A program made the position numbers and the translations under genes. A DNA stretch of 64,000 nucleotides from Nothopassalora personata. Taxonomy: Eukaryota; Ascomycota; Dothideomycetes; Mycosphaerellales; Mycosphaerellaceae. This document shows, piece by piece, positions 2,151-51,245 of this stretch (positions are counted from its first letter, which is position 1; the number at the start of each line of letters is the position of its first letter). The notes below the pieces were generated by a model that did not search any database, was not told where the DNA came from, and saw only the letters and a program-made list of their open reading frames with translations. The stretch lies in assembly GCA_033816765.1 (NCBI GenBank), contig CM066292.1, positions 2,108,001-2,172,000 on the forward strand, written 5' to 3'.

Positions 2151-2203
2151 TTTAATAAAATTGGTAAGGTTCTCGTACTATCTCGGAGAAACCTCGGACT
2201 TTA

Positions 2204-6041: not shown

Positions 6042-6067
6042 ATTTACCGGTCCCGGGACCGGTAAAT
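6042..6067. repeat. 26-bp perfect palindrome downstream of R1a pol
   Basis: Same 26 bases as at 2204-2229, so pol is bracketed by two identical palindromes 3.8 kb apart. It contains no CpA or TpG, so RIP could not erode it. Confidence 0.95.
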
Positions 6068-21101: not shown

Positions 21102-21471
21102 TATTAACGACTGATAGGTTGTGTTAACCTTAGGTTTAGAGGGGGTCCCTTAGGTCTAACTTGCCCTAATTTCATTTTAGTTTAATTAGACATTTAGGTA
21201 AGCTAGTAGGACCTAGTATAGCTATTAAGATATATACTACGCAGTTAAGCATTATAAGCGTAGCATTAAGGAAACAATTCAATTCATACCTCTCGAGTAG
21301 AGGGCATAGGGGTTTAGGTCCGCCAATCCTCTTGTTTATCTAGCTACTGCGCTACTCGTTACGTAACCTAATTTCACGGTCCCGGGATCGGCAAATACCC
21401 CTACTTACATAAGCGCCGCTCTATACCACTATAACTTGGACAGGCCTACATAGGGTAGTTAGTAGACATTA
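21102..21471 (+). repeat. R1 LTR, plus orientation
   Basis: Starts TATTAACGAC and ends GACATTA. One step of its palindrome is changed (CCCGGGATCGG). Confidence 0.9.
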
Positions 21472-22289: not shown

Positions 22290-22847
22290 TTAACCCGTAG
22301 GTAGTAGCTCTAGTACCTCCTAGAACTCGTCGCTAAAGCCCTTAATAGCATCCTACGTGCCCGGTAATAAGTTAAGGGCTAGACCCTTAGGTAGGATATC
22401 CGAAGGAAGTAGAGAGGCCTCTTCCGCCTCCTACTCCTTAATCTCCCTCTCCTCGATAGAGATCGCCTCCTTAGCGTAACGATCTACTAAATCTATCTAC
22501 TAGCGTAAACGCTCCTCGCGCGCGCGAGTAATCTTTAGATCCTCGAGAGCCTTCTCGTATACCCGTATTACCTCCTCCTAAGCGGACCGAGACTCCTAGA
22601 TTTTCTAGTAAAGAAGAGCCTTCTTCTCCGCTAACCTCTTAAACTCTAACTAAGTTACCCTTACGTCGTACCTTTAGCCGCGACGAAGACACTTACTACA
22701 CTTCCCGGAATAAATATACACTTTATATACACGACTATGCTTTTTATACGTCGAGTATTTCTTAACTATAACTTCTCCCGCGGATTTAATAAACTCGTAG
22801 AGACGGCGGCGACGGATAGTACTAGAAGAGCGCTAATAGGTAGGCAT
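22290..22847 (-). pseudogene. G2b antisense ORF: Zn2Cys6-like, coiled-coil protein (185 codons)
   Basis: On the strand opposite gag-pol, an ATG at 22847 opens a frame to TAA at 22290, broken only by TAG and one TAA at likely former Gln codons. Residues 31, 34, 41, 50, 53 and 60 are Tyr, Tyr, Tyr, Cys, Cys, Tyr; TGY-to-TAY is the RIP change for Cys. The spacing x2, x6, x8, x2, x6 is that of fungal Zn2Cys6 DNA-binding clusters, with basic residues between (KKHSR, LRRGQR). A long Glu/Lys/Arg-rich, probably coiled-coil segment follows (residues 65-140). It starts 91 bp from the 3' LTR. Homologous position and second Cys pair as in G2a (50618-51172). The function is inferred from spacing only. Confidence 0.65.
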
Positions 22848-22938
22848 CGTAAGAGGAAGGAGCTATACGCAAATATATAAGAGATACCGTTTTTTATAAG
22901 TAAGCTTAAGGGACTAAGCTAGGCTAGAAGGGGGATAG

Positions 22939-23367
22939 TGTTACGGTTTAGTCTAGATAGCGATATCGACTAGATACACGTAATACTAATTACTTAGACA
23001 TACGTAACGCTAATTACTTAGATATACGTAACACTAATTACTCTACGAACTAATTAGTATAATTAGTATACTTAGTAGGACTAATAAAGGTAATTATACT
23101 AAGTAGTAGGCTCTACGCCGTAAATCTCCTTTATATTTAGGAACGCTAAGAAACCCTTATAGTCTCGAGGCGTTTAACTTACTGTTTAATATTACTATTT
23201 AGAATACACCAAAACCTAACCTCTACTATATTGTTTCTTAAGCCTTTATAAGACTAAGATAACTACTACTTTATTACTCTCCCTCGACTTCTTATTAGCC
23301 CGAGAATAAACCCAATTAAGCTTATCTTCTTAACTTATAATATTATTAGGTTATACTAAACCTAACA
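22939..23367 (+). repeat. G2b LTR (429 bp), 3' end of the 21472 fragment
   Basis: TGTTACGGTTTAG...AAACCTAACA, preceded by the purine tract GAAGGGGGATAG. The same type and length occurs reversed at 54765-55193. The right half is shared with the G2a LTRs; the left (U3) half is not. Confidence 0.9.
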
Positions 23368-31660: not shown

Positions 31661-31715
31661 GATTTGATAAAATCGGTAAGGTTCTCGCACTATCTCGGAG
31701 AAACCTCGGACTTTA

Positions 31716-31741
31716 ATTTACCGGTCCCGGGACCGGTAAAT
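31716..31741. repeat. 26-bp palindrome, R1b, before pol
   Basis: Identical to 2204-2229. Confidence 0.95.
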
Positions 31742-32034
31742 AGCTATAGTAAGGAAAACGGATACGACTACGACACGACGCATCTATAGGAACCCGGCAA
31801 GGCTCTAACGCCTAGCAACTATTTAGCTCACTTATTAGGATTGCTTAGGACTACTAGAGTAAAGGAACGAGTTATAGAAATTAGAATAGGCGCGTTTAAG
31901 GGAGATTCTATTACTAACGTTTATTTAGTTTAAGGGGATTAGCCCTCCGAGATCCTAAGGCAATCTACATTAAATACTTAGGCACGGAAGCAATAAGTAG
32001 GCTAACATATAGCTAACATTAGGATACCGTAGGT

Positions 32035-35000
32035 CTTTACGATGTATAAGCGTAAGGCGGATAAGAAGAAGCTAGTAGACGCGAGCGTTCACGAACGCCT
32101 AGAATCACGAGTTAAGGGAGATATAGAATAGAAGCGTAGGGCACTATACCTAGAATCTAAGATGCCTAAAGGACAAGGTCCGTTCGATAGGAAGTACTTA
32201 ACTAAGAAATTCTTAAGTATTAAGCGAGGTAGCCGTATTACTCTAGAACGACTTACCTTAATTAAGGTTAGCATTAAGCTATTACTAATAGAAAGGGCCT
32301 TATTCAATAAGATGCTCTATAACCGGGAGGCAGTCCTCGCTTAGGATTTTAGTTACATAAGGCAAATTAGGCACGACGTTATGCTACCTTAGAAGATTAA
32401 CACGGTCCCTTATAGGCTATAGTAGGCACGCCCTATCCGGTTGTACCTAAGTCTTAGGGCAATTGTTAAGCGTATAATTAGAGCCCGGATTAAGAATAAC
32501 ATCCTAGAATACTTATAAGGGGCATATTCTAATAACTAGTTCCTAGTCGTAAAGAAGGTTAATACCTCTAGAAGCGATGTGCTATATCGGTTAATTAACT
32601 TAGCTATGCTCCTAAATAAGGTTACTATACGCGATACTAACATTCCACCGGACACGGATAGCTTCTTAGAGGATTTTCACGGGTGCCGAGTCGCTTTACT
32701 TATAGACCTGTTTTTAGGTTATAATTAGATTACTTTAGATAAGTTCTACCGGGACTTAACAGCCTTTATAACCCCTCTTAGCCTAGTACGCAACACGACT
32801 CTACCTTAAGGAGCTACTAATTTAGTTACTTAGTTCGTGCGTGCGGTAATAAAGATCCTACTTAATTATATCTCGTATCGAGCGAAGCCGTTTCTCGATA
32901 ACATCGGTATTAAGGGACTAACTAAGGACTATAGGAATACCGAAGTAGAGCCTAGGTTAAGGAAATAGGTCGTTAAGCATATCGTTTCCCTAGATCTAGT
33001 TCTTACTAACCTAGAAAGAGCTAGTGCGGTAGTTACTAGAGGCAAATCCTAATAGTTATACGAAAAGCTTAAAATTGTTAGGTACGTTACTAGCCCGGAT
33101 AGTCGCTATCCTAACCTAAAGGTTATAGCTAAGATCCTAGATTAGCCTACGCCTACCTATATTAAGGAGGTCCGCACCTATGTAGGGCTGTGTGTGTACT
33201 TCCGGATATAGATTCCCTAGTTCGTTATTATCGCTCGACTAATGTATAAGCTACTAAAGAAGGACGCCGAGTTTACCTAGATAGAAAATGAGCAGTTCTT
33301 AAAAGAAGAGATTACTAGATATCTTATGTAGGCTCTAGCCTTAGTTACCCTCTACTACTTACCTAGTACTAGGTCCATCTTTATCTTAGTTAATGCTAGC
33401 GGCACTAGATAGGGATGTATCGTTTCTTAAGAATTAATAGACAGTACCTGACGGCGTTACCCGATGCGGTATAAGAGCGGAATCTAGAACGCGTTAGAAT
33501 CTAGATATAATGCTAGCAAGCGGGAATGCCTTAGGGTCCTTAAGGGGCTTAAGAAGATCTAGAGATATATTACTAGCGTTAATTTTATCCTTAAGGTTAA
33601 TACTAAGACACTTATATAGTAGCTTAACCGGCCGGCTTCGGACCTGCCAAACTCGGCAATGGCCCGGTAGGTCGTATAGATTAGGTTATTTACGTTCGAG
33701 GTAAAGCACGTTACGGGGACTAGATACACTAGCCTAGATGCCCTGTCTCGTAGGCCCTCTATACCTTAGGAACCTAGGGAAGCTAACGAAGACGAAGTCG
33801 ACTAGATAATTGATAATAAGCTATTCGGGTACCCGGAGCCGGTCGATACCTATCTAGTTAAAATCTAGAAAACACGACATCTCGGGGACTAATATTCTAA
33901 GGGCTCTTAGTAGCTTACTTAGGTTATAGAAACTAGGACCCGGCCCGATAGTGTTACCCGTACTAAGTACCGGCGGCTAGTAAAGAAGAGCGTCAATTTC
34001 TTTATCCGGGACCAATTACTGTTCTTCTAGAAGTGCCGAGGAGCACTATTATAACTTATAATTAACGATAATAAGGCTTAGAAGGAGATCGTTATAGAAT
34101 GCTATAAGAGACACGGTTACCGTAGCGCTAAGGTCGTATATAACCTTATTTCCGATCGGTATTACTAGGACGGGTGCTTCGCCGATGTCTCTACGTAGGT
34201 TCGAAGTTATGCTCCTTATAGGTTTCGCGAAGGCAACTAGCGCGCTAGTAAGCTTCACTTATCGAGCCCTTAGGTCATTAGTAAGAAGTGGTACTCGGAC
34301 CCCGTCTAGGTGCATAAAAATAGATACCTCCTAGTTACGCGCGAAGTACTTAGTAACTAGATCGAGGCTAGAGTAACGAGGGCACCTCCTAGCTCTAAGA
34401 CGGTTACTAAGTTTCTATACGAAGATGTCTTCTATAGTATTAACGACTAATAGGTTATGTTAACCTTAGGTTTAGAGGGGGTCCCTTAGATCTAACTTGC
34501 CCTAATTTCATTTTGGTTTAATTAGACATTTAGGTAAGCTAGTAGGACCTAGTGTAGCTATTAAGATATATACTGCGCAGTTAAGCATTGTAAGCGTAGC
34601 ATTAAGGAAACAATTTCAATTTATACCTCTCGAGTAGAGGGTATAGGGGTTTAGGTGCGCTAATCTTCTTATTTATCTAGCTACTACGCTACTCGTCACG
34701 TGACCTAATTTCCCGGTCCCGGGACCGGCAAATACCCCTGCTTACGTAAGCACCGCTCTATACTACTATAACTCGGACAGGCCTATATAGGGTAGTTAGT
34801 AGACATTAATAGGTACGGCTACTATGCTAAAATTGTGCTTAATAACGCTACGGTTCATACGGGTAAGGTTAAGCGGTTGCTCGTAGGGCTTAGTGTTCGA
34901 AGGATTCGAATATTACCGTACCATCCGTAGTCTAATACTCCGGTCGAGGCTAGACACCGTCCGATTCTTATAGCGTTAGTAAAGCTTATAAGGAACACAT

Positions 35001-35745
35001 ACCGCGGATAGGAGTAATAGGTACCCGCTGTATTATAGGCTAATAGGACTACGACCTGTCGTACTACTAGAATGACGCTAGCTTAGGTCCTATATAGCTA
35101 TCGCACGATTCTACCAATTGAGGTTAAGTACCCGACGTAGGCAAATTACTAATGGGGATCGGTAAGAACGACTAAGGACCTACTTACTATACGTGCGCGT
35201 TAACTCTAGGCTCGAGACCTTAGTTTAGAAGAGCTACATGCTCGAAGGAAGCGACTAAGAGAACTTAGTAAGGACTACTTTAATTCTTACCGGAATGTTA
35301 ACTTTATTAGTTTCTAGAAGGGCGACCTTATTATAAGATTCGATAAGCTATATAAGGATAACTTCTCACGCAAAATCGGTTACCGATAGTAAGGTCTATA
35401 TCGGGTGTCTAGTGTCTCTAGGGAGTTTAGTACCTATATTCTTAAGGAACTTAATAGCACGCTAATAAAGGGTGTTTAGGTACGAGAAAACCTTAAGCTA
35501 GTTCTAGAGCTTCGCCCGGATAACATAGGAGTACTAGGCCTAGACAATAGGATCGATCTCGTAATAGGGGAGGGAGAAGTCGCTAATAGCGTCGCTAATG
35601 GCGAAGACAGCAGTAATTCGAACGAGATCGAGCCTATCGCCGACGAAGACGTACTACCTATAGGAGTTAACGAAAGGGGATCGTATCCTAAACCGGAATC
35701 TAAGAAGCTATAGGTTAGGCCTTATAACCTTTCTATAGCTAAGTA
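32035..35745 (+). pseudogene. R1b pol, interrupted by a solo LTR at 34438
   Basis: Same RT, RNase H and integrase order as R1a. The clean block 32162-32344 lies just before the RT palm. The integrase is cut at 34437 by an R1 LTR and resumes at 34809-34812 (target duplication ATAG). All domains carry RIP stops. Confidence 0.85.
34438..34808 (+). mobile_element. Solo R1 LTR inside R1b integrase
   Basis: TATTAACGAC...GACATTA, 371 bp, with direct ATAG on both sides (34434-34437, 34809-34812). The uninterrupted R1a sequence (near 4950) is the empty site, so this 4-bp duplication is well supported. Full insertion followed by LTR-LTR recombination is the usual origin. Confidence 0.9.
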
Positions 35746-35906
35746 GGATCGAGGCTAAGAACTAATTAGTTAGCAATAGCGTACGGAGTTCACTTCCCTT
35801 AGGCATGTGTTACGCATGCCCTTTAGTTTATTAAGCCGATTCGGTTATCTAGACTTCACTTTATAGGGTGTTCTTACCTTAGTTAGACCTTAGTTAGTAG
35901 AGTTAC

Positions 35907-35932
35907 ATTTACCGGTCCCGGGACCGGTAAAT
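35907..35932. repeat. 26-bp palindrome, R1b, after pol
   Basis: Identical to 6042-6067. Confidence 0.95.
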
Positions 35933-36319
35933 CGGATTACGCGATAGCGTAGCATGCCCTACCGAATGCTTACCTAGGTGGTCACTAGTACTGGTTTTTG
36001 GTCACATGTAGGGTTATCGGACCTTTAGTGTAACCTTAATAGTACTACTCTTACTACTTATAAGACCGGTCTCGGCGCTACTGCCTTATAACGGTTATAG
36101 GAATATACGCTAAGAGGCATACTTAAGCGCAGCTCTCTACCTACTACTTCCTCTCCTTTTCTTTAAACACTAACATATCTATCTACTACCACTATACACA
36201 TTAGACGGTTCTTTAGCCTCTCTCTCTTTACGACCTTAACCTTCTTTAAAGCCCCTACCCTAACACTAAGCTTTTAAAGCTTACTAACACTCTAGAGTAG
36301 TACTACGAGATAGCTAGCT

Positions 36320-38118
36320 CTTACGATCTTACTACTAGCGAATCCTAGTTATTATAGCTTTAGCTAGTCTATCGTTACGCCCGGCTAGCTCGAGTATAGC
36401 GCTTACTAGTACTGTTACTAGGCTCACCCGCCTACCTTAGACCTTATTCGAGTCCCTTCGCCTACCGGATAACGTTAAGCATGTCCTTACTAACACGAAC
36501 ACGCCGAAGTCCGCCGCTAATGTTATGTTCCGAGAGCTTAGTCCTTAGAAGCGGGTTAAGGTGTTAAAGAACTTCTATAAGGGCTTCGAGAAGGTGTTCG
36601 AAGACTACTCCGTCTAGGTTAACCTATTTTTCGAGGAAGTTAAGGGCGGTATAGGTAAGAGCTACTAGGATGAATTCCTTAGTAATAAGAAGCTCGATGT
36701 CTTATTTCCTATCGTCGGTAAGATTCGCAAGACCGGTTTAGAGATTCGTAACCGAGAGAAGACTCTTCGAGCTACGCTTACCCGCTACTAGCTATAGTAG
36801 ATAGACAATAAGATTCTTAATCGACGCGTTATCTCCGAGCTTTATAGTACTAACAGCGGGCGCCGCTAGTTCATAGCCTTCATTAATAAGTACCTAGACT
36901 ATAGTAGGGCTATTAGTAGAATTTAGAGGGTATTAATCTAGCGTATAAGGATCGGCCGTAAGGGTATACATCGTAAGCGAATTCTAGAGCCTAGTAATCT
37001 TACCCGGTACGATAGGGAGGCTAAAGCACGTAGTATTAATCCGTAGTCGGCTAAGAGTAGGGAGATTATTAGAAGATACCGCCTAGCCGTCTATAAGGAT
37101 AGCCTTCTATACTTTATAGAGGGTACTATTACTAAGAAATCCGCGTCCCTAGAGGACAGTATAGATTAACCTAGACTATCTAGCTAGTAACAGCCTTAGC
37201 TACGTTAGCTACTACCGGGTAGTAAAGGTAAAGGACGTGTAAAGAGTACTACGCTAACTCCACTAGCCTCTACCTAGCCTATAGTCCTATCGAGAGGCGG
37301 TCGTAAGTTGAGTTGACTTAAGTAGCTCCGTATAGGCGAGAGTATAGGTAAGGGCATAACTACGCCTACTTAATCCTCGCCTAACCGAACGCTAGACGGC
37401 GCACCTATACGCGAAGGCAGTCCGCTAGGTACACCGGTTAGTACCCTACGATCTACTCTAGCCCTAACTAAGAATAGTAATCCGATACTTACTATGTTAC
37501 CTTCGGCTATAATTAGGGATGTATTAGTCTTTAAGGATTAGATCCTATAAGAAGACGAGGCCCTCCGGATTAAGCGCGCTAACTGCACCTATAATAAGCG
37601 GTACTATAGCATTAAGTTTAGAAACTCGATTAATATAGATAGCATTAACTAGCTACCTAAGTACCGGATGGCGGGCCTTAAGATGCTCGAATATGCTGTC
37701 TCGGACGTTCTTAAGAGGGATAGTAAGGTTAGCGCTATAATGTACGATTAGTATGTTCGAGATTTCTACTATAAGGCCCTCCACTTCGTTACGAATCCTG
37801 GTATTACCGCTAATACCCTATGTAAGCGCGCGCTTAAGGTCTAAGACTAGCTCTTTAAAGGTAAGAGTTTTTTAGCTATTAAGGTAAAGAATAGGTCGTG
37901 GTCTCGCCCTAATAAGCGTAGTTAGAAGACTATTAACCCGCTTAGCTACCTCCGTGTTCGAGGTAAAGTCGGTACTACGAGTAGCATCGTTACGTATACT
38001 AACTATAACTAGATCCTCGATAAATTTAGCATCGATAAAGCTAACTAAGCCGATCTTAATAGTACCGGTACCTACATTAATAGTAACATACTATACTAGT
38101 ATAATGACGCTAAACTAG
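36320..38118 (+). pseudogene. R1b ORF3, first part
   Basis: Same unrecognised long frame as in R1a, with mostly RIP-type differences. It is cut at 38118 by E3 (target duplication ACTAG) and continues from 44812 to a TAA at 46236-46238. Confidence 0.65.
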
Positions 38119-38313
38119 TGTAAGGGGCAGCCTAGTAGCTAACCCCTACATGTAGCCTTGTATATAACATGTGGTCGCGACCGGCTACTAAGCCGCACGT
38201 GACACGCATGAGTACACCTTACGACGCGCGATACGTCTTAAAAAAGGCAAGAATTAGTTCATCTACGACTAGTAGGTCGTAGGCGTGCTATACATTGCGA
38301 CATCCCTTTAACA
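38119..38313 (+). repeat. E3 5' LTR (195 bp)
   Basis: It includes AAGAATTAG (38249-38257), the exact complement of CTAATTCTT at 38317-38325, three bases after the LTR: a probable self-primer. Confidence 0.9.
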
Positions 38314-38316
38314 GTT

Positions 38317-38325
38317 CTAATTCTT
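38317..38325 (+). promoter_or_regulatory. Probable E3 self-primer binding site
   Basis: CTAATTCTT pairs with AAGAATTAG in the LTR (9 of 9). This fits the Tf1/sushi group, to which the chromodomain also points. Confidence 0.6.
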
Positions 38326-38350
38326 CTCTTCGTTATAATCTATACACGCT

Positions 38351-39470
38351 ATAGAGTCCGAACGCGACGATAGTAGCGCTACGCCTACGGCTCCCCTAAG
38401 CCCTAGGGCCTAGCAACAAGCGAGGCGTGCAGCCTTAGTCGTAAGGAGGGATGCCCTTCGGGTAGAGGTTAAGGAGAAGGAGATATAGAGGGAGATTAAA
38501 CAGTTAGAGATCTTACGGGACGTAAGCGTACCGCCGGCGGACCCTTAGGGCGAATCCGGCGGAGAACTATCCCCTACTCCCCCTCCCCCTCCTCTATCTA
38601 TAGTAACTAACGATAATATCGTAGCTCGAGGCGCGGTCGCATCGCATACGACACGTTTACGTCTTAAAGAACCTACGCCTTTTAGAGGGGACTCGATTAA
38701 GAAAGCACGGGTATTCCTAAGGGAGCTCTCTCTTATCTTTACCCTCTTAGGCGGCACGTATGCGACGAACGAGTTAAAGGTCCTATATAGGGTTATATAC
38801 CTAAGCGGAGAGGTAAGTAAGCGATAGCACGCTAACTATAGCGTCCTTAACCTTAAAGAGTATATATACTAGGACTTTAAGGAGTTCTATCGAGACGCAT
38901 ACGGTAATCCTATAAACCGCGTGCTTAACGTAATGTTAGAGTATAAGGCGGTAAAATAGAAGGATAACTAGACAGTACGTTAGTTTACGACTAAGCTAGA
39001 TGTTATAGAGGATTAGTTAGGGGACTATACGGAGGCGTAACGCGTGCGACATATGCTCGCTAAGCTTACGCCTAGCCTACGGTCCGCAATCGTTAAGTTT
39101 CATAACATCCTAATAACTAGAGAGGAACTAGTAATCCTAGCTTCGCGCATTAAAAGCACGGAGCGTAGTAGCGGAGGGCACGACCGCGGGTAGCATAGTT
39201 GCCGTAGGCGAGAGACTAAGGGCGACTAAGGGCGAAGCGATCGTAGCTCGAAGTAGTAGAAGCATAGTTAGGCGTCGCGCGACCCGGGTACGAGTTACTA
39301 GCGGGACGCCGGCGGATCGTCTATAACCTTCGATAGGACTAAAGCGGAGTACTATAGATGCTATAAGAAGGGTCACATTAAGACGGATTGCCCGAATAGG
39401 CACCTATAGAAGGACCGTAGCGCGTAAGCGGTTCGTAGGGTAGATGCTACGAAGGCTCTAACTAAGAAGG
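38351..39470 (+). pseudogene. E3 gag
   Basis: The frame starts at ATA 38351 (ATG before a TpG-to-TpA change). It has a Ser/Pro/Gln-rich head, a charged helix (VEVKEKEIQREIKQLEIL), a retrotransposon capsid region (FRGDSIKKARVFLREL, LEYKAVKQKDNQTVRQF) and a zinc knuckle at about 39350-39390. The knuckle reads YYRCYKKGHIKTDC, with Tyr for the first Cys. Few TAG stops are present. Pol continues in the -1 frame relative to gag. Confidence 0.8.
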
Positions 39471-39668
39471 GTAGCGACTAGGGAAAAGATAGAGGACTAG
39501 AAGTAGGTCGCTCCTAAGTCCGAGTTTTCCTAAAGTCGACCCCTTAAGGCGAGTAGATATATGTCTATCGTAGCGACTAGGGAAAAGGTAGAGGACTATA
39601 AGTGGGTCGCTCCTAAGTCCGAGTTTTCCTAAAGTCGACCCCTTAAGGCGAGTAGATGCGTGTCTAGC
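39471..39668 (+). repeat. 99-bp tandem duplication at the E3 gag-pol junction
   Basis: Units 39471-39569 and 39570-39668 are near-identical and exactly 33 codons long, so the duplication keeps the frame. It lies in the gag-pol overlap where the frame changes. Confidence 0.9.
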
Positions 39669-42600
39669 GCGTTACTTACGAGGCGCAGTCGAGACTCGTA
39701 AGGGCTTTCGCGAGGCTACGTTTCTCCTAGATAACTGTACGGATCTTAGCCTAGTGTCGTATAAGTATGTACTCCGACATTAAATATAACCTATTAATAG
39801 GGTAAGGCTACCGAAGTTAGAGTCGTATGCGCATAACCTAGGGTATTACTACGGCGCCTTTACGGTTCGGCTGCGACTCGCTAATAACGCGGGAGTAGAG
39901 CGCGTAAGTAACGCTATCTACTACGCGGTGCCTATAGGTAGGCCATTAGTGATTTTAGGTAGACCCTAGCGGCATCGTAATCGGATAGTAAAGGCCGATA
40001 AGGATAACTAGTAGTACTACGGTGTAGAGACGCCTACGGTTTAGTAGCGTGACGCACGCGAGTTCCTTAAGGATCTCGAGAGCTTAAAGCAGGTTTATGC
40101 GATAAGTGTTCGGGCTATTACTATAGCAGTACCTAAAGGAGAGGGCCCCTCGTAGCCTAAAGAATTTGTAGACTTCCGAGATATATACGCACCTAATAAG
40201 TAGGCGAAGCGCAAGATGCCCGACGGGGTTAAGTATACGATTAATCTCGTTAAAGGAAAGAAACCCCCTTTTAAGCCGCTATACCACTAGTCCTTAACTA
40301 AGTTAGAGGCCTTAAAGGAGTACCTTACGTAAGTAATAGAGAAGGGGTAGATTAGGCGGTCCGTAAGCGAGGCGGGTGCGCCTATCCTATTCGTACTAAA
40401 GAAGAATAGTACTCTTAGGCTCTATGTTAATTATAGAGGCCTAAATGAGATTATAGTAAAGAACTGATACCCCCTGCCCCTAATTAGCGAGACGCTAGAT
40501 AGGCTATTAGGTTCTAGGTTCTTTACTACAATCAATTTAAAGGACGCCTACTATCGTATCCCTATTAAGCGAGGCGATAAGTAGAAGACTATGTTTTGCA
40601 CGCGATACGGACACTACGAGTACCTAGTAATACCGTTCGGGTTAACTAACGCACCGGTAACCTTTTAAGGGTATATTAACAAGGCGCTAACCGGCTTAGT
40701 TAATAACATTTACGTAGTCTACCTAGATAATATCCTTATCTATAGCGAGACGCGTAAGGCACCCGTGCGAGCCGTACGCGCGGTACTAGAGAGGCTACGA
40801 AAGTTTACCCTGTTCGCAAACCCTAAGAAGTGTCACTTCTTCTAGGAGAGTATAGAGTTCCTTAGGTTTGTCGTAAGCGCCGTAGGCGTGTCGATAGATA
40901 GGAGTAGGGTAGCCGCTATCGAGGAATAGCCTACACCTACGACCTTTTACAAGGTCTAGTCCTTCCTTAGGTTTTGCAACTTCTACCGGCGTTTTATAGA
41001 AGGATACTTAAGGGTCTATAAGCCCCTAACGGACCTACTAAAGGGATCTAAGGACGGTAAGAAGCACGGCCCTCTTACGTGGACCTTAAGCGAAGAGTAG
41101 GCGTTTCGATAGCTTAAGGCCGGATTCTTAGGTGTACTAATACTTAGGTACTTCGATCCTACGCTACGCACGCGAGTCGAGACGGATGCCTTAGGTTTCG
41201 CGATCGTAGGTATTATATCCCAATTGTTTAGTACTAAGTAGCATCCTATCGCGTTCTATTTACGTAAGATAATACTAGCTAAGTGCAACTACGAGACGTA
41301 CGATTAGGAGCTACTTACAGTAGTTAAGGCTTTTAAGCATTAGAGGCTATACTTAGAGGGCGCTACGCATGCGGTACGAGTACTAGTCGACTACGCTAAC
41401 CTATAGAGCTTTATAATAGTAAAGCAGCTAAATAGGCGGTAAGCTCGATAGGCTACGTTCCTACAGTCTTTTAATTTTATAGTAGAGCATCGGCCGGGTA
41501 AGACTAACCTAGCCGACGCGCCTTTAAGACGTAGTAACTACGTAGCCATAACGTAATAAACTTCGAACTTGCTACCTACCTTATAAAGTAAGCTATCTTT
41601 CTAGAAGGAGTCTCTAGAAGGGACAAGCGAGCCGACGGTAAAGCGCGTACTTACTACCTACGAGGCGATATAGGGCGACATAGGCGCGGCGATAGTAGTA
41701 CGGAGAGGTAACCTTCCCTATTAAGATAAGCCGTCTTTACTAGTATTAGTATGCGCTATAGTAATATAGGGTTAAGCTTATAGCTCGACGGGTAAGTTAA
41801 TCCTACTCTTAATAAAGATCGCGTAGTAGTAAGACAACTAGTGTATCGTATACTTAGCGTAGGCGCTAAGCGCGAGGGACGCTAAGGGATGGCATATAAA
41901 GGATAACCTTATGTACTACGGAGACGCGATCGTAGTACCTAGGGATTACGCAATTAGGTCGCATCTAATTCGCATGCACTACGACGACGTCCTCGCGGGT
42001 TACTTTAGAAGGACTAAGACTAAAGAGCTATTACGACGTAATTATTAGTAGGACTCACTTAGCACGGACGTAAAACAATACGTCTAAGCCTATAGAACCT
42101 ACTAGGGTTCGAAGGCGAGGCGCCATCGACCCTACGGCGAGCTATAACCGCTTCCTAGACTAGAGCGACCGTAGTAGGAAATTACTATAGATTTCATTAC
42201 GGACCTACCTCTAAGTACGCGAGCCGGTTACGTGTATAATGCGATCCTAGTAATAGTCGATCGCTACTTAAAAATAAGCTTATACATCCCGACGACGAAG
42301 ACTTGCATAGCCGTAGAGCTTACGAGGCTCCTACGAGACGAAGTCGTGCGACACTATAGTATCCCGTTAGGTATAGTAAGCGACCGAGGTCCGGTCTTTA
42401 CTAGTTAGTTTTAGAGTGACTTCTACTTCGAGGCGCGTATAAAGCGTAAGCTATCTACGGCCTTTCACCCTTAGACTAACGGCTAAACTAAGAGGGTAAA
42501 CTAAACCCTCGAACAATACCTTCGTTATTACTACAGTAACAATTAAACTAAGTGGGCTAAGTAGCTTACAGTTACTAAATTCATAGCTAATAACAGCATC

Positions 42601-43238
42601 TACCTAACACTACGGATAAGTCCGTTTAAAATAGCGTACGGTTAGCGACCTAAGATTGCCCCTATACTAACTAGATCTCGAGATGAGACCTAGGGGGGGA
42701 AGTACTAGCAGCGGTAATAGCTACGAGTCGTATACGAAAACTACGCGCTACACTCGAGGAGCGATAGAAGGCTGTAGTAGAAAGCTAGGCTCGCTACTAT
42801 AATAAGACCTACTAAGCTAAGACCTACCGCGTAGGTAACTTAGTCCTATTATTAACGAAGAACCTTAAGTTAGTAGTGCTAAAGAAGAAGATAGGTCCGA
42901 AGTTCATCGGCCTATACCGTATTACGGACGCTGTCGGTTCGTAGGCGTACCGCCTAGCGCTACTAGCCGACTTAAGGCTCTATAACGTCTTCTATGTCTC
43001 TCTCCTCGAGCCGTATATCGGTAGCGATAAGGATAGACCCGTACCCCCTCTAGCTAATAAGGACGGAGAGTATAAGGTAGAGGTAGTACTAGATAGGCGT
43101 AAGCGTAAGGGTAAGCTACAGTATCTAGTCTAGTAGAAGGACTAGCTAGAGGAGTATAATAGCTAGGAACCGGCGGAGGGCCTCGCGAATGCGGATCGCA
43201 TAGTAGCCGACTATAAGGCGTTAAGGAGAAGTAAATAA
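39540..43238 (+). pseudogene. E3 pol: protease, RT, RNase H, integrase, chromodomain
   Basis: Protease near 39720 (LLDNCTDLSLVS). RT at about 40350-40900: [42 protein letters not shown], and YLDNILIYS as a damaged YxDD box. RNase H at about 41150-41540: ETDALGFAIVGII, KCNYETYD, EHRPGKTNLAD. Integrase at about 41880-42660: MHYDDVLAGYFRRTKT, ITIDFITDLP, IVSDRGPVFTS, STAFHP-TNG. Seven G at 42693-42699 mark a one-base frameshift. The chromodomain lies at about 43060-43160 (YKVEVVLDRRKRKGKLQYLV). Otherwise only RIP-type stops interrupt; this is the best-preserved pol in the window. Confidence 0.9.
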
Positions 43239-43372
43239 GACTAGTACTAGAGCATAAATAAAACTTTTCTTAACTATAAATAAAACAAAAGCTAAAGAGT
43301 AGCGCGCCTACTAGGGGCTACGTAGAGTAGTAGTAGGCGAGGAGCCCGCGAGCAGCGTATAAGGCGAGCGCC

Positions 43373-44310
43373 TTAGTTGTCGTTACGTAGTAACTTAGGT
43401 AAGAATGCCTAGTCGGCGGCGGTAGTGTCGATGTTCTACGCCTATAGGAACTGGGACTACGGTTAGTAGGGTACACGTAGGCGAGGAACATGCGACTTAC
43501 GGCGCGGCCGAGTTCAAACAGCCCATTAAGGGCGCGGTTCTACTCCTACTAGAGCGCGAGGGCTTTAGCGGCGGGGGCGGCGGCAGTAGTAGCGGCGGCG
43601 GCGGAGGTACGCATACGGGTCTCCCCGGCACGCTTGTACTTATAGGCATTAAACTGCCTAATAGCCTATAGGAAGGGTTAGCCGAAGCATAGGGGACGCA
43701 CTAGAGCCCTCCCCCGCGAGTAGCAGTCGACTCGCACGAGCGAAGTAGCGACTTACCTCCTTAATGTCGTTACCTAGCTAGGCACATAGGCGGATCTACT
43801 CTACTAGCTCCTACTACTAGAGGTCTATAGGCGCCTAGCCCATTATAGTCGTAAGGAAGTCGCGCTAGGACCGCGCGGCGCGTAGGCGGCTTACTAGCGA
43901 GGCGATGGCGTGGCTAGTATTAGGCACGTAGCTATGTTTACTACGCCTATAGCGGCTACACTTCTTTAGGAGCTCGCCGGTAGTGACACTATTACAGTTA
44001 TCGGCCTCGTCTAGCAAGTGGTTAGTATGCGAATCGTAGGCGACGCGCGTAGAGACTTACCCCTAACGAAGTACGGGAGGCACCGTATATACATGTTAAT
44101 TCTCTACGAGAGCTTAGTAGCTAGCGAGGGCGTTAGTGGCTACGAGGGTAATGCTAGTCGCTTGCGACTACTAGGCGTTCTAGGGGCGTCGCGTACTAGA
44201 GCCGCCTAGCGGCGCTCGTCTTCTACGGCGCTAGTAGTACTATCGCTACTAGTGCTACTAGAGGAGGCAGAGCGGCTAGAGAATAGCGGCGAGGAGGGCA
44301 CGGTAGACAT
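43373..44310 (-). pseudogene. E3 antisense spliced gene: Cys-rich accessory protein, 4 exons, 248 codons
   Basis: Opposite to gag-pol, ATG at 44310. Exons (minus): 44310-44061, 44010-43757, 43665-43501, 43450-43373, ending TAA. All three introns (50, 91 and 50 bp) start GTAAGT and end CTAG, CTATAG and CCCAG. Introns 1 and 3 contain TACTAAC and intron 2 has GCTAAC, each 8-14 bases before the end. The joined frame is exactly 747 bases; only TAG codons, presumed former CAG, interrupt it. The protein has a Ser-rich head, a Cys/Tyr cluster at 77, 80, 89, 101, 104 and 111 (Tyr at 80, 104, 111), then a Gln/Ala-rich helical tail. It is convergent with pol (135 bp apart) and starts 301 bp from the 3' LTR. 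It is comparable to the antisense ORFs of G2a and G2b. Function unknown. Confidence 0.75.
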
Positions 44311-44611
44311 GATGATGATAATAATGCTAGCGAGGCGCTTACGATAATGGTACGGTGCGGGTGCGTAGTAGTAGTGTAGCGAAGGTAATAAGCTAGGGAG
44401 CGTACTAAGAAAGGGCTAGGTTAGGCTAGAGTTTTATGCCCCTAACTAGCTACGTCGGCATAGTAACTAAGCCTCACTTACCTATACCTACATAACGACA
44501 CGCACGTAACCCGCATGTGGGCCGTATAGTAACTATAGTTCTAGAAGTACATAGGAGCCTCTACGTAGCAACTAGCGAGCTGAGGACAGCTCGCACGGGA
44601 GGGGAGGCAAT

Positions 44612-44806
44612 TGTAAGGGGCAGCCTAGTAGCTAACCCCTACATGTAGCCTTGTATGTAACATGCGGTTGCGACCGGCTACTAAGCCGCACGTAACACGC
44701 ATGAGTACACCTTACGACGCGCGATGCGTCTTGAAAAAGGTAAGAATTAGTTCATCTACGACTAGTAGGTCGTGGGCGTGCTATACATTACGACATCCCT
44801 TTAATA
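44612..44806 (+). repeat. E3 3' LTR (195 bp)
   Basis: Partner of 38119-38313, preceded by the purine tract GGGAGGGGAGG. Differences between the LTRs are transitions of RIP type. Confidence 0.95.
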
Positions 44807-44811
44807 ACTAG

Positions 44812-46238
44812 CGCCGCGGGTTAAAATAGTTAGAGAGATAATAAGTCGAGAATTCGACGTGTACCGATAGTACCTACGAGAATTAAACAAGGTTAGTAAC
44901 GGCGGCGTCTACTAGAACATGTAGTATTCTCTAAGCTAATAGATTATGCGATAAGACCCCGGGCTATAGCTCTTATAAGTAGCGCTACACCCTTAACACT
45001 ATACTCGGTTCATCTCCTTCCCTAGGCCTACGATTTTTAGCTTTAATAGGGCTTATTAGGGAGGTGACGCGAACACTATAGTATAGTATGCTAGGGTCGA
45101 CTTAAACCTCGAAATTGAAAACTACTAGACTAGTAACCGGCTTAACATACTATACTCTCTTAACTTAGAGGGCACTAGTAGGACGGAGTTTTTACACGGT
45201 TTTTATAAGTAAGGGAATGCTAGAGAGTTCATCTAGTAGTGCCGGATTAACGACTATATAGAAGACGGCCGATTCAAGCGTTTCTTTTCGGTTAGGGTGT
45301 AGAATTACCTAAGTAAGAATAGCATTAGCTGGTTTAGAGAGGACCTAAGCGCTAGGTAAATGCGGGTAACTACTATAGGCGTTCTAATAAGGTAGGCCGT
45401 ATATAAGAGGACACTACGTTAGATTAACCCTTACTTTATCGAGATCCGTAACGATAACTATCTTAAACTCTAGAGAAGCTAGAGCATGCACTAGGTAATG
45501 GACCTCTATCGTAACTTCAAGACGCTAAGTAAGAGTGCTATAGGGTTTAAGTATCGACGCCTAGTACCCGGCTATCCTTTTCCTACGGCCGTACACCTTA
45601 GTAGTATTAGCCCTCTATCCGATGCCCTAGCGGGTTTAAAGTCTTAGAACGACAATAAAGTCATCCTTAATGCTAGAAGGTAGCTTAATGGTACGGTCCG
45701 CCTAGACTCGGAGCTCTTCTATAAGAAGATGCATAATTGGCGCGTCCGAGCTATAAAATTGATAGATAAGTAGCTTAGCTTAGTCACTACTCTCGAGTAG
45801 ATGTGCTTTATAAGCGAAGGGCGTAATAAGAGCTTCTTCCGCAACTACTATAGGAACTTCACTAGCTAGCTACTTAGGGACGCGTCTAGTAAGACTAGTG
45901 TTAGCTACGACAACGAGTAGGTCTAGATAAAGGAGTTATGTAAGAATGAGTGGAACTAAGTAGTTAGTGCGGGTTTATAGGCTCCTAGTTTCTAGTTGAT
46001 TTCCGGCTACAGCTATAGCCTATAGGATTCTAGTTCTAATTCTAGTTCTAATTCTAGTTCTAATTCTAGTTCTAATTCTAGTTCTAATCCTAGTTCTAAT
46101 TCTAGTTCTAATGCTTCGGGTACAGGTGCTTCTAGTCCTTAGATCTTACTTGTTTCTTATAGTTACTTATCTTCCCTTAACTCACTTTCTAGCTACGCGG
46201 TAGACTCGTCTTTAGATTTATTAGGTTACTAGTCCTAA
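44812..46238 (+). pseudogene. R1b ORF3, second part
   Basis: Continues from 38118 after E3. It ends at TAA 46236-46238 and includes an expanded Ser/Asn hexanucleotide tract (46028-46112). 46239-46601 is non-coding R1 3' sequence. Confidence 0.65.
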
Positions 46239-46601
46239 CGCTCACTTATCGTATAAATGGCGTTTACGTTATTCGACTATCTAGCCCGCTCGATTAATAC
46301 TAACATAGCTATCTATTCCCTCGCTAGTTTCGTAACTTACGTTAGTATAGTGTAACGGGTACGAGTCGCGGATTATCGACGTTACTATTACGGTCTCTAT
46401 TAAAGAAATCCTTTCGACCTTTATAAACTGTCGCTAGTAGGCCCTAGGATTGCCTAACATCTTATATGTTAAGCTAAATGGTAGGGTGAGCTACTATACT
46501 ACTATAAGACTACCTTAGCTTATAGCGACTAACTAAGCTACCTATAGTGCCCGGGCTTACTGCTTTGGAACCTAAGGACAGGTTCGTAATAGGGGAGGAT
46601 A

Positions 46602-46972
46602 TATTAACGACTAATGGGTTGTATTAACCTTAGGTTTAGAGGGGGTCCCTTAGGTCTAACTTGCCCTAATTTCATTTAGGTTTAATTGGACATTTAGGTA
46701 AGCTAGTAGGACCTAGTATAGCTATTAAGATATATACTACGTAGCTAAGTATTGTAAGCGTAGCATTAAGGCAACAATTCAATTTATACCTCTCGAGTAG
46801 AGGGTATAGGGGTTTAGGGTCCGCCAATCCTCTTGTTTATCTAGCTACTGCGCTACTCGTCACGTAACCTAATTTCCCGGTCCCGGGACCGTTAAATACT
46901 CCTGCTTACGTAAGCACCGCTCTATACCACCACAACTCGGACAGGCCTACATAGGGTGGTTAGTAGACATTA
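46602..46972 (+). repeat. R1b 3' LTR
   Basis: 371 bp, TATTAACGAC...GACATTA, with the palindrome core at about 46880-46893. Confidence 0.9.
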
Positions 46973-47381
46973 ATATAGAAAGGCTCGCGCTAGGTTTAAG
47001 CGGAGGCCTCGAGACACGAAGTACGACGTTCTATATACGAATAGGGAAAAGGATTAACTCCCTAGGAATAAGCGACCGAAGGGAGTTATATAATATAGAA
47101 AAGGCTTAAGCATTACTAATGATAATAGTGTTTCGAACTAAGATTATCGTTAACGGGCATAAGATAGATGCTATAATAGATTCCGGAGTAAGCGGGAATT
47201 TTACCTCCGAATTATTCGTTATAAGACATAGGATCGCTACCTATAAGAAGAAAGAGGGTTATAAATTAATCGCGGTAGACGGATTATCCTTACCTAGTAT
47301 AGAGCGCGAGACGATACCGCTACTACTTGCTATCTAACGGTACTACGAGGAGATTATCTTAGATGTTACTAACATAGCTAG
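46973..47381 (+). repeat. 409-bp direct duplication flanking R1b, right copy
   Basis: Partner of 27687-28095. It contains the G2a protease, here as a clean 72-codon frame (47119-47337) with AIIDSGVSGNF. Confidence 0.95.
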
Positions 47382-50300
47382 TTATAACATCGTACTAGGT
47401 ATACCTTAGTTAAGAAAGCATAATCTAGTAATTGACTAGAGAAGAGGAGTACTTACATTTAGGGAATACGACTGCGTTATCGACATTTAGCCTACGTAGC
47501 GGTAGCGTTCGCTAGTAGATAAGGTAAAGAGACAGCTAAATAGGATATAGCTTACGCCGAATAGAAGGATAGAAGAACCAACTTCGGCCGGGATAGACAC
47601 TAGCGTAGGGCCGCCGGGTTACGAAGTTACTAGTAGTAATAGAAGTAACGTACTATCGAAGGATACTAACATCTTAGAGTTAAGTATTCCTAAAGAGTAT
47701 CGCAAGTAGTCGCGACTCTTTAAAGAGGAAAGAGGTAAGGATACCTTACCTAAGTACTAACTATAGGATTATAAGATAAACATTTAGCTAGGGAAAGAGC
47801 CTCTATAGGGACCCCTATATTAAATGTCTAAGAAAGAGCTATAGACCCTACGAGAATAGCTAAAGGAGAAGCTAGCTAAAGGATAGATAAGAAGATCCAC
47901 CTTAAGTGTAGGAACTCTATATATGTTCGTTCTAAAAGTAAACGGGAAGTTACGACTCGTATAAGACTATAGGAAGTTAAACGAGATTACGATTAAGAAC
48001 CGATACCCGCTACCTAATATCGAAGAAGCATAAGATAGATTAACCGGATTAGACTAGTATACGAAGATTAACCTACGAGATGCCTTCTACGCTATACGGA
48101 TAGTAGAAGGAGAAGAATAGAAAACCGCTTTTAGAACAAGATACGGACTTTATAAATTCTTAGTTATACTAATAGAATTAACTAACGTACCCGCATCCTA
48201 TTAGGACCTTGTTAACGAAACACTTGGAGACCTACTCGACATATACGTTATCGCTTATATAGACGACATATTAGTCTATACGAAAGGATCCCTTTAGAAT
48301 TACATAAAGTAAGTCTAGGACGTATTCGAACGACTTACGCGTTTAGGATTTAAGACAGTACCCGAGAAATGCGAATTCTATAAGAAAGAAGTTAAATTCT
48401 TAGGCTTTATTATTAGTACTATAGGTATAACAATCGACCCTACGAAGACATAGTTAATTAGAGAATAGCTAGAACTAAAAACAGTCAAGGACGTACAATT
48501 ATTCCTTAGACTAGCGAACTACAACCGGAAATTCATTAAGGACTACGTAAAGATAACAGCACTAATAACGATGCTTACGAGAAAAGACGTTACCTAGAAA
48601 TAGGGAAAGGAACAGATTAAAGCATTTAAGAAACTTAAGGAACAATGCGCTTTAGTCCCTACGCTTCGACTATTCGATAGTAGTAAGGAAGTCTACATCG
48701 AGACCGATACGTCTAATATAGCAATAGACGCGTGTCTAACATAGACGCACGATAGGTAGAGACACCTAGTAGCCTATTATTCCCGGAAAATAACTACAGC
48801 GGAACAGAACTACGACATCTATAACAAAGAGCTTCTAGCTATTATTACTACTATGTAACATTAGAGAGTATATGTCGAGGGCCTACCGAAGTTAACGATT
48901 CTTTCTAACTATAAGAATCTTACGTACTTTACGACGACGAAAGAACTTACCCGAAGGCAAGCCCGCTAGTCGGAGCTACTAGGACAGTATAAGTTCGAAA
49001 TTAAATATACTCTAGGACGAGAGAATAGCCGCGCCGACGCGCTAAGCCGAAGAAGCGACTACATAGAAGGAAAAGAACTAGTGTAGCATAAGGTACTAAA
49101 GACAAACCCCGACGGAAGTCTTAGCGCTAACATAAGGGAATTTAACAATATCGTACGGATATTAGGCGACAAGGACGAACAATTCCCTATATCGCAAGAA
49201 AAATACTAGGTACTAAAGAATCAAGAAGAAGAATACATACGATAACATTACGACGGACTAACATATAGGTACCCTAGAACTTTAAAAACAATGGACCTAA
49301 TATAACGTAGCTTCTTATTCCTATAGATAAGACTTAAAGTATTACGCTATATTAAACAATACGTACACTACTAACGAAATAAGGCTACGAGACATGCGAA
49401 ATACGGTTACCTACAGTTTAGGACACCTCCGACGAAACCATAGGACGAAGTTATAATAGACTTTATTACGAAACTCCTACCGTTAAGAGATTAAGTTACG
49501 AAACAACCATACGACATAATACTAGTTATAGTTAATAGACTTATAAAGTACGTACACTTCATTCCTACATCGGAGACATATAATATAGAGTAGCTCGGAT
49601 ACCTCGTACTAGATAGACTTATCCGGTACTACGGATTCCCTTAAGCGTTTATAACGGATAGAGATAAGCTATTTACGTCGAACTACTAGAAGACACTTAT
49701 AGGAACGATCGGAATTAAACATAAGCTATTAATAGCATATTATCCGGAGATAGACGGATAGACCGAAAGGATAAATTAAACGCTAGAACAATACCTACGA
49801 CACTATATTAACTACGTATAAGACAACTAGGTTTTATTACTGCTAATAGCGTAGATTGCACTAAACAACTACAAATCGGAGATAACTTTAACGACACTAT
49901 TCTATACAAACTTTAGTAAAGATCCTAACCTATTTAGAACACCTAGATCTTACCTATAAGCCGAAAGAGCGATCGTAACGACGGACACTCTTAAGGAAGT
50001 GCATAAAGAAACACGTAAGGCGATCGAAGATGCACAATATAAACTGTCTTAATAACGGTAGGACACGAGAAAAATAGCACCTCTACTAAAAGAGGGGGAT
50101 AAGGTCTATCTCCTTATAAAAAACTTAAGAACAAGAAGATAGACTAAGAAACTAGATTATGTTAAGGTCGGACCATTTTTCATTGATAAAGTTATAGGAC
50201 TAGTTAACTACCGTCTACGGCTACTACCTAACGTAAAAATCTACCTAGTCTTCTACATCTCTAAGTTAGAACCCGTAGACGCCGAAACACCCTACTAGGA

Positions 50301-50440
50301 GAGCTTCCATTTCGAACCAGAAGTAGAAAACGAATTTAAAGTCGAAAAAATCCTAGATAAGAAAGGTTAGCGATACCTTATTAAGTAGAAAGGATACGAC
50401 GAATTAGAAAATACCTAGGAACTGAAATAAAACCTATAAA
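47382..50440 (+). pseudogene. G2a pol: RT, RNase H, integrase, chromodomain
   Basis: RT at about 47900-48420, with the catalytic box YIDDILVYT intact near 48257-48283. RNase H at about 48690-49060 (YIETDTSNIAIDACL; YDIYNKELLAI; LGRENSRADALSRR). Integrase at about 49300-49810 (VIIDFITKLLPL, ITDRDKLFTSNYQKTLIGT, YYPEIDGQTERIN). Chromodomain at about 50335-50425 (EFKVEKILDKKG, LIK-KGYDELENT). Only scattered stops, mostly TAG. It is separated from its gag (24984-28095) by R1b. Confidence 0.85.
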
Positions 50441-50520
50441 ACTATTAGTAAAAGATCCGACAATACTAAAAATGGGTCCGCCGAGATAACTAACGACAAT
50501 CGATCTTACGGCCGACGAGC

Positions 50521-50617: not shown

Positions 50618-51172
50618 TTATAAATAAGTACCCTAATAAGTCTCTACCCCTAGGGACTCGCCCTAAGGCTCCGCTCTAGAAAGCGCCGCCTAGTCGTTTA
50701 CGGGCATCTCTAGGATATCCGAGAAAGAAACTAGCGAAGGCGACACCTCTACCCCCGACGCCCGCTTAAGAGACGCTAGCTCCTCGCGCGCCTCTTCCTC
50801 CTCGAGCTCCTCTAACTCCTTAGCGACGGCATCGTCGGTGCGACGCTTAGCTAATCGTAGCTGTTTCCGAAGACGGATCTTACGCATCTTTAGCCGTACC
50901 TCCTCCTCTTTAATCCTCTTAAGCTCTAGCTTAAGATTATCGCGCGAATCGCGAAGACGTTCCTACTCCGGACGAGAAAGACGCACATCGTAATCTTTAT
51001 AGCCTTTTCGAATATAGGCCGAACATTTTCTAGACCGAGAACCTACGATACACTTTACTACTGCGCCCGAGGATCGAGACTTCTAACAATTCGTGCATAG
51101 AGCTATTTTAATACTAGAAATTTTAGTATCCTAAGTAAGTCGTTAACGGCGTTTATAGGAGGAAGAAGACAT
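50618..51172 (-). pseudogene. G2a antisense ORF: Cys-rich, coiled-coil protein (184 codons)
   Basis: ATG at 51172 to TAA at 50618, with six codons read as former Gln (TAG, one TAA), the last stretch before 50690 being the cleanest. Residues 26, 29, 41 and 50 are Cys, with Tyr at 53 and 61; the second pair (50, 53) sits at the same residue numbers as in G2b. A strongly charged Arg/Lys/Glu helix follows (about residues 68-150: LKLELKRIKEEEVRLK and a Glu run), probably coiled coil. It starts 73 bp from the 3' LTR. Total length is 184 against 185 codons in G2b although the sequences differ greatly. No introns seen. Function unknown; a DNA-binding or regulatory role is inference. Confidence 0.65.
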
Positions 51173-51245
51173 AGTTAACCATTACTATAAGAAACGATAA
51201 CGGCTTAAGAAGCTTCGGGACGAAGCTAGGCTAAGAAGGGGATAG

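Follow-up and report, generated by a model that had tools for sequence, protein, structure and literature searches.

An antisense gene with three apparent introns and zinc-cluster-like cysteines in a fungal chromodomain retrotransposon

Can a retrotransposon carry, on the strand opposite to its own gag-pol, a protein-coding gene interrupted by introns, and what might such a gene do for the element? The question is raised by a Ty3/gypsy element of the chromodomain type, located in a stretch of 64,000 nucleotides from the ascomycete Nothopassalora personata (assembly GCA_033816765.1, contig CM066292.1, positions 2,108,001 to 2,172,000 of the forward strand). This whole stretch is referred to here as the window, and its own coordinates are used throughout. 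A previous reading, based on the sequence only, had described four antisense segments joined by three introns between the chromodomain and the 3' long terminal repeat (LTR), and had proposed that the element, degraded by repeat-induced point mutation (RIP), carries an accessory gene. The comparisons described below indicate that the antisense frame is a real protein-coding gene under constraint within this family, because its stops in RIPed copies are all TAG, the frame is open in un-RIPed copies and replacement changes are avoided only in the antisense frame. As to function, we lean towards a DNA-binding regulator, which would probably tune the LTR or control region of its own element.

Structure of the antisense gene and constraint on its frame

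The layout first proposed for the locus was recovered in full. The gene (44310–43373, minus strand) lies opposite gag-pol, between the pol stop at 43238 and the 3' LTR at 44612–44806, and its four exons splice to 747 nt, i.e. 248 codons followed by TAA, with 16 TAG and neither TAA nor TGA as internal stops. Exon 1 (44061–44310) encodes a Ser-rich N-terminus and the first CX2C of a cysteine cluster, exon 2 (43757–44010) the rest of the six-cysteine cluster and then a stretch read as helical; exon 3 (43501–43665) and exon 4 (43373–43450, including the stop TAA) complete the frame. All three introns start with GTAAGT: intron 1 (44011–44060, 50 nt) and intron 3 (43451–43500, 50 nt) contain an exact TACTAAC and end in TAG and CCCAG, respectively, while intron 2 (43666–43756, 91 nt) contains GGCTAAC and ends in TATAG. 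These signals are present in the window as described earlier, but RIP created part of this perfection: in the un-RIPed relative L040 the donor of intron 3 reads GTGAGT, and both branch sites, those of introns 1 and 3, read TGCTAAC instead of TACTAAC. A TATA-like CATAAAA (44432–44438, minus strand), about 125 nt upstream of the antisense ATG and identical in the window and in L040, may mark the promoter.

The notion that introns survive retrotransposition through their antisense orientation is supported, since the genomic RNA contains only their reverse complements. The three introns also constitute a natural marker, as splicing at these positions is possible only in an antisense mRNA.

Copies of the gene were searched for in the genome (54.5 Mb, 40 contigs). 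Only top-ranking candidates were scored in each search (150 of 1,259 with this protein), and copy numbers are therefore lower bounds. A DNA search, with 40 candidates scored, returned the window copy and 39 others matching nearly the whole region at 96–97% identity, plus one partial match; a protein search showed that stop-free relatives are also present. Sixty loci, picked by their match to the region, were aligned together with the window copy to the un-RIPed L040, which is the same locus as L065 and served as reference. Twenty-four of them, group C, are hardly RIPed. L065 has the full gene without any internal stop, and the other 23 share an in-frame deletion of 167 bp, removing intron 3 and 117 exonic nt (39 codons); 22 of these read 209 amino acids without a stop and one carries a TAG. 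Counting L065 and the 22 deleted copies free of stops, the antisense frame is thus open in 23 of the 24 un-RIPed loci, and, within this genome, intact relatives do keep the frame, as the sequence-only reading anticipated. Four inspected group C copies (L047, L048, L052 and L065) are separate insertions, because the sequence 3' of their 3' LTR differs. The RIPed copies fall into group A, the type of the window copy (18 copies, with 99–117 RIP-type and 5–14 other changes relative to L040), and group B (13 copies, with 108–123 and 32–52, respectively). Three loci (L080, L102 and L103), in which unrelated sequence replaces exon 1, were excluded from stop and substitution counts; they may be recombinants.

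The antisense frame of 34 RIPed copies holds 526 internal stops, every one of them a TAG (526/526). Within the same copies, the other two frames of the antisense strand contain 136 TAA and 3 TGA, and 507 TAA and 11 TGA, and the sense frames 90, 4 and 280 TAA. Selection on the frame was evaluated from changes of other origin: group B copies differ from L040 by 67 distinct changes outside the C>T and G>A classes, and 57 of these fall in exons. Replacements account for 33 of 1404 opportunities and silent changes for 24 of 332, a ratio of 0.33 (one-sided Fisher p=4e-5), far from the value near 1 expected of an unconstrained frame; this figure rests on copies from one genome, with distinct changes counted as events. 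The same ratio ranges from 0.59 to 1.11 in the five other frames (1.07 and 1.11 in the shifted antisense frames; 0.93, 0.59 and 0.85 in the sense ones). At third codon positions only, 1 replacement (213 opportunities) was found versus 22 silent changes (323 opportunities).

Indels follow the same frame. Among the 13 group B copies, all exonic indel types (8/8) are multiples of 3, while none of the intronic ones is (0/3; 1 or 2 nt); in this analysis L071 and L084, nearer to family A, were left out of the B set, and the partial L106 out of the A set. GC content is 0.63, 0.55 and 0.85 at the three codon positions and 0.61 in introns. Splice sites are retained in nearly all of 37 RIPed copies (donor GT in 36/37, acceptor AG in 37/37). 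Given at most three introns, the longest spliced open reading frame (ORF) of an un-RIPed copy measures 1026 nt on the antisense strand, along a path longer than the 747-nt model, and 318 nt on the sense strand. The earlier proposal of an accessory protein-coding gene is borne out by the all-TAG stops, the open un-RIPed frames and the ratio of 0.33.

The protein and comparable genes in other chromovirus families

In the natural protein, as encoded by L040, a Ser-rich N-terminus precedes six cysteines with the spacing CX2CX11CX11CX2CX6C; another cysteine lies further on, and the end is acidic. Zn2Cys6 domains are defined by the spacing CX2CX6CX5-12CX2CX6-8C. The six-cysteine cluster reads like a Zn2Cys6 relative, the peptide CGRCRRSKHSC resembling one half of such a domain, and the stretch which follows it may be helical.

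Protein database searches retrieved no homologue at E <= 0.01, either among 6,651 candidates with stops entered as X or among 6,667 candidates with the natural, un-RIPed spliced protein. A control search with pol returned 4,676 proteins at E <= 0.001 out of 7,991 scored, with fungal names among the 120 listed; fungal proteins are therefore covered by the database, where a spliced transposon gene may have escaped prediction. Scans of viral contigs for the antisense protein yielded no confirmed relative. Pfam, NCBIfam and PDB sequence matches of the antisense proteins, including those described below, are weak and were taken as unrelated; Zn2Cys6 proteins are represented in the PDB sequence lists by LEU3 alone (E 0.77 and 2).

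Comparable genes were found next to other pols. A pol-alignment scan of prokaryote assemblies identified 39 loci with a related Ty3/gypsy-type pol (L107–L145), on contigs which look like eukaryotic contamination, many of them with little 3' flank. In two of the 39, L109 and L125, an antisense frame of at least 199 codons adjoining pol contains a six-cysteine pattern. The L109 frame (431 codons between stops, CX2CX11CX10CX2CX6C) lies between pol and an LTR, the other copy of which, at the far end of the contig, is 100% identical; its cysteine spacing is nearly that of the spliced gene of the window. The L125 frame has 199 codons and the pattern CX2CX7CX8CX2CX8C. Six-cysteine patterns at four more loci (L119, L120 and L121, antisense and downstream of pol, and L123, elsewhere) were judged by eye to be of low complexity, and those of L116, L117, L132, L133 and L134 lie on the sense strand and are knuckle-like; all were discarded.

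No clear relative of the L109 protein was detected in the genome which contains the window (best E 0.283). The L125 protein, in contrast, matches many multi-copy groups there: among the best 150 of 256 matches scored, 133 are stop-free. Seventeen of the 150, forming the L150 family, are weak (E 0.1–0.26), and were counted because searching with L150 recovers both the L149 (E 4.5e-18) and the L147 (E 1.8e-14) families. Proteins like that of L125 are presumably common as hypothetical proteins in ascomycete annotations.

The position of these genes was assessed by crossing the L125-like matches with pol anchors, namely 150 chromodomain rows (the best 150 of 1,231) and 33 of 150 SH3 rows, a further 92 rows being left out. 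A listed anchor lies within 3 kb of 55 of the 150 matches, and 53 of these 55 are on the opposite strand, the matched stretch ending 100–200 bp from the anchor; the remaining two are on the same strand, 2.0 and 2.4 kb away. By coordinates, the 53 convergent matches belong to four families of 15, 16, 5 and 17 copies. All 24 un-RIPed loci of the window's own family likewise converge on the chromodomain, at 250–500 bp. Conversely, 95 of the 150 L125-like matches have no listed anchor and 73 of the 150 chromodomain anchors no listed antisense gene; absence cannot be claimed at the latter, because three further matches (C4:492669, C9:775669 and C10:205954) adjoin such anchors. The top 27 SH3 matches, which by score and coordinates look like un-RIPed copies of the window element's own family, lie in frames of 195–201 codons (7) or of at least 1220 codons (20), and three of these 27 loci have no antisense match among the matches listed, possibly an effect of the scoring limit.

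Two broken genes of the single-exon type are found in the window itself, both on the minus strand. The one at 22293–22940 shares 71% amino acid identity with the L149 gene and converges with pol pieces at 19635–22163 (plus strand); that at 50636–51175 shares 83% with the L148 gene and converges with a pol at 49237–50442 (plus strand).

The six cysteines are invariant in 7 antisense proteins, and in 10 when the relevant piece of L109 is added. Their spacing is exactly CX2CX6CX8CX2CX6C in L147, L149 and L150, and 2,6,8,2,7 in L151. These four, out of nine, fall within the Zn2Cys6 definition, while L125 (loop 1 of 7 residues), L148 (11) and L152–L154 (13) fall outside it. Among six of the proteins scanned for PF00172, only L151 gave a match, below cut-off (E 0.87), and none was obtained with those of L125 and L109. 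In an AlphaFold model of L147, the cysteine cluster (predicted local distance difference test score about 92) is followed by one long helix. Foldseek returned weak matches, the first of them to Pho7, with Zn2Cys6 factors in 1/2 and 2/3 of the listed rows; on a second look at the structure matches, Zn2Cys6 factors made up 7/7 and 2/2 entries, including 1cld, annotated only as a DNA-binding protein, which we take to be LAC9. The strongest of the weak library matches is that of the L150 protein, which shows two stretches of similarity to DUF5651 (PF18892), below cut-off (E 7.4e-5); L149 matches the same model at E 0.55.

L109 matches the single-exon antisense proteins at E 3.7e-4, with a probability of only 36. 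The spliced gene and its single-exon counterparts may share more than a resemblance; what links them is where they lie and on which strand, together with the six cysteines and a tail that is probably helical.

A peculiar contrast is offered by four loci, L151–L154, where a gag on the opposite strand ends 31–118 nt from the antisense gene, and the two are the only genes seen on the stretches examined. The zinc knuckle PF00098 is above cut-off in all four gags, and the gag domain in two, the other two being partial stretches. These loci would be elements devoid of pol, because gag ends beside the antisense gene; a negative pol test was set aside, since it was equally negative for L148–L150, which adjoin pol by coordinates. 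The four gags are 94–98% identical at both the protein and the DNA level, whereas their antisense genes are only 31–60% identical as proteins and 44–67% as DNA. On the far side of the antisense gene, 45–49 nt are again 84–100% identical in four of the six pairs, and the L151–L152 pair shows 73% over 182 columns. L152–L154 align throughout the antisense gene at 67%. Either gene exchange or very fast divergence is needed to account for the contrast.

Candidate roles of the antisense protein

Of the roles proposed, that of a DNA-binding regulator fits best with the architecture of the comparable genes, in which a predicted zinc cluster precedes a long helix, and control of the element's own LTR would be the best mechanism. 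According to this proposal, transcription of the minus-strand gene would begin somewhere between its ATG and the 3' LTR, and the transcript would be spliced three times. The product, with its Ser-rich N-terminus, putative six-cysteine zinc cluster and helical C-terminal half, would most likely be a nuclear, dimeric protein able to bind DNA. It would probably bind the LTR or control region of its own element and tune sense transcription, in a way reminiscent of the retroviral protein HBZ. The corresponding genes of other chromoviruses may then diversify, or be exchanged, as element-specific versions.

A candidate target is found in the LTR of un-RIPed copies, which contains the palindrome CGGTCGCGACCG. 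The pattern CGG-N6-CCG, a possible zinc-cluster site, occurs in the LTR of 44 of the 45 copies scored (24/24 in L047–L070, 14/14 in L071–L086 and 6/7 in L087–L106), though in L086 the site is not a perfect palindrome. In the window it is present in the 3' LTR (44665–44676, plus strand) and absent from the 5' LTR. We regard it as a weak lead.

Several observations weigh against a coding gene for a zinc-cluster regulator. The natural spacing, CX2CX11CX11CX2CX6C, lies outside the Zn2Cys6 definition, loop 1 being too long, and a Pfam scan of the protein gave no match to PF00172 at E <= 10, nor did NCBIfam return anything of the zinc-cluster kind. Sequence comparison of the spliced gene with the single-exon antisense genes reveals no common descent. 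CGG-N6-CCG is expected in 6.8% of shuffled LTRs, and the site contains no RIP target. With regard to coding, two of the eight exonic indels are one base apart and may be a single one, and some occur within repeated triplets, a setting prone to multiples of three; introns are conserved about as well as replacement sites. Finally, in 1000 dinucleotide shuffles the longest spliced ORF averages 395 nt and reaches the antisense length in 7, so that length alone is not decisive.

This last result, and the fact that RIP removes TGA and so lengthens frames if TAG is ignored, could suggest a chance open frame in RIP-biased sequence. Such an origin is extremely unlikely: it is contradicted by un-RIPed copies, which are open without any stop being read through, by selection specific to one frame and by the lack of a single in-frame TAA or TGA in the 34 RIPed copies. 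A gene captured from the host and carried as a passenger, of no benefit to the element, would fit with the failure to find a relative among the 6,667 candidates, which leaves no known function tying the protein to retroelements; we give it little credence in view of the purifying selection within the family, where 23 of 24 un-RIPed loci keep the frame open, and of the similar genes which occupy this position in other families of chromoviruses, as well as on two contigs from elsewhere. Convergent transcription would generate an overlap with the sense transcript, and a regulatory role of antisense RNA has been discussed for plant elements in the available part of PMC7264820. The RNA itself might thus be the product, pairing with genomic RNA to feed double-stranded RNA silencing or copy-number control, with the protein incidental. 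This is improbable, as the constraint tracks the protein frame, where alone all 526 stops are TAG, the ratio falls to 0.33 and exonic indels come in threes, and as the cysteines are invariant across the single-exon families.

Two further explanations accept the protein but assign it another task. It could act as a cofactor of integration or chromatin, helping the chromodomain integrase to choose targets or shielding the element from silencing, rather than controlling the LTR. The gene does adjoin the chromodomain convergently, at 24/24 un-RIPed loci and in 53/55 anchored L125-like matches, and the DNA-binding-like cluster and long helix of the comparable genes would suit this task too; but elements which have gag rather than pol beside the gene, and possibly no pol at all, retain it, so that no link to a neighbouring integrase is required, and we consider such a cofactor unlikely. 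Alternatively, the zinc cluster could belong to a nucleic-acid chaperone or packaging protein, a second nucleocapsid, rather than to a transcriptional regulator, an idea prompted by L151–L154, where gag and the antisense gene adjoin as the sole genes seen. These gags, however, already own a zinc knuckle (4/4), and the cluster resembles Zn2Cys6 domains, structure matches being mostly to Zn2Cys6 factors; this option, too, has a low probability.

Returning to the DNA-binding regulator, a broader and more tentative proposal, which we hold to be possible but do not favour, concerns fungal chromoviruses as a group. They may carry an antisense gene, either in one exon or with several introns, for a protein built like a transcription factor, with a zinc cluster, a coiled coil and an acidic tail, and this gene could serve each element as a regulatory code of its own. 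By diversifying much faster than the rest of the element, or by being swapped as a cassette between otherwise near-identical elements, it might let each family control its own LTR, escaping both the other families and the host.

The host element and known antisense genes

The host element is of the chromodomain Ty3/gypsy type, with gag-pol on the plus strand, and is flanked by paired LTRs and a target-site duplication. The latter, ACTAG, is found at 38114–38118 on the 5' side and at 44807–44811 after the 3' LTR (44612–44806); a paralogous empty site, carrying a single ACTAG, lies near position 8267. The 5' LTR (TGTAAG...TTAACA) occupies 38119–38313. The C-terminal part of a broken pol (integrase, SH3 and chromodomain) occupies 41686–43238, with its stop at 43236–43238; Pfam domains were assigned on the un-RIPed L040. 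A purine-rich tract, GGGAGGGGAGG, lies immediately 5' of the 3' LTR (44597–44607) and may act as the plus-strand primer. All these features are on the plus strand. The dinucleotide composition of the element, depleted in CA and TG and rich in TA, is that expected after RIP. The two LTRs of the window copy differ at 9 positions, and dating by LTR divergence was abandoned because all of them are C/T or G/A, i.e. RIP-type.

Other repeats were noticed in the window. A segment of 10.4 kb is duplicated at about 94% identity (1–10414 versus 29513–46975); the host element and a repeat of 371 bp are inserted in its second copy, while the empty site near 8267 is seen in the first. Copies of a 370–385-bp repeat, in both orientations, lie at 10039, 20148, 21098, 28093, 34438 and 46602; another family has probably left them, as LTRs or solo LTRs. 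A 99-bp tandem duplication (39471–39668, 93% identity) is found towards the 5' end of the host element.

Antisense genes of retroelements are already known from plants and from Botrytis; the introns and the zinc-cluster architecture appear to be new. No antisense zinc-cluster gene in a fungal retrotransposon was found described in the literature searched, which comprised titles and abstract openings, with most subscription journals outside. In fungi, brtn is an antisense gene of the Boty-like Ty3/gypsy elements of Botrytis cinerea, as cited in the accessible parts of PMC7264820, PMC8365987 and PMC4227169. Boty is, like the window element, a fungal chromodomain Ty3/gypsy (gag-pol with CHROMO, PMC4227169) with an extra gene antisense to gag-pol; the likeness, which comes from these citing papers, concerns the type of host element and the orientation of the gene.

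Plant LTR retrotransposons carry antisense additional ORFs (aORF-3R). According to the portions available of PMC7264820 and PMC11963269, certain families have them in every copy or in the majority; the same texts report, for some of these ORFs, a promoter of their own and a protein localised in the nucleus, and PMC7264820, in the part available, states that no role has been assigned to them. The window gene resembles them in lying between pol and the 3' LTR, antisense to gag-pol, in being coding and in occurring in many copies of its family. It differs in its three introns and six-cysteine cluster, and in its fungal host; in the available text, the word "intron" is absent from both PMC7264820 and PMC11963269, and "zinc" from PMC11963269.

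Fungal Zn2Cys6 factors, such as Pho7, HAP1, PPR1, LEU3, GAL4 and PUT3, likewise carry their six cysteines as two halves, each led by CX2C, ahead of a long helix. Unlike them, the window protein has loops of 11 and 11 residues and no Pfam match, and the antisense proteins are small (about 200–250 codons) and encoded inside retrotransposons.

A parallel in the way of working is provided by HBZ of human T-cell leukaemia virus type 1 (HTLV-1), a spliced antisense basic leucine zipper (bZIP) protein, which resembles a transcription factor and lowers HTLV-1 expression via the 5' LTR, and by the APH antisense proteins of other deltaretroviruses: all derive, according to the available part of PMC10186651, from a spliced antisense transcript arising in the 3' portion of the provirus. 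HBZ belongs to a retrovirus and to the bZIP class, and no sequence relation to the window gene, itself known from its sequence alone, is claimed. The present locus offers an antisense gene whose architecture can be tested, which has natural alleles free of RIP and counterparts in several families of the same genome, and a marked contrast between near-identical gags and strongly divergent antisense genes. This opens the role of retroelement antisense genes to direct experiments, and it suggests that retrotransposons may carry transcription factors of their own, as HTLV-1 does.
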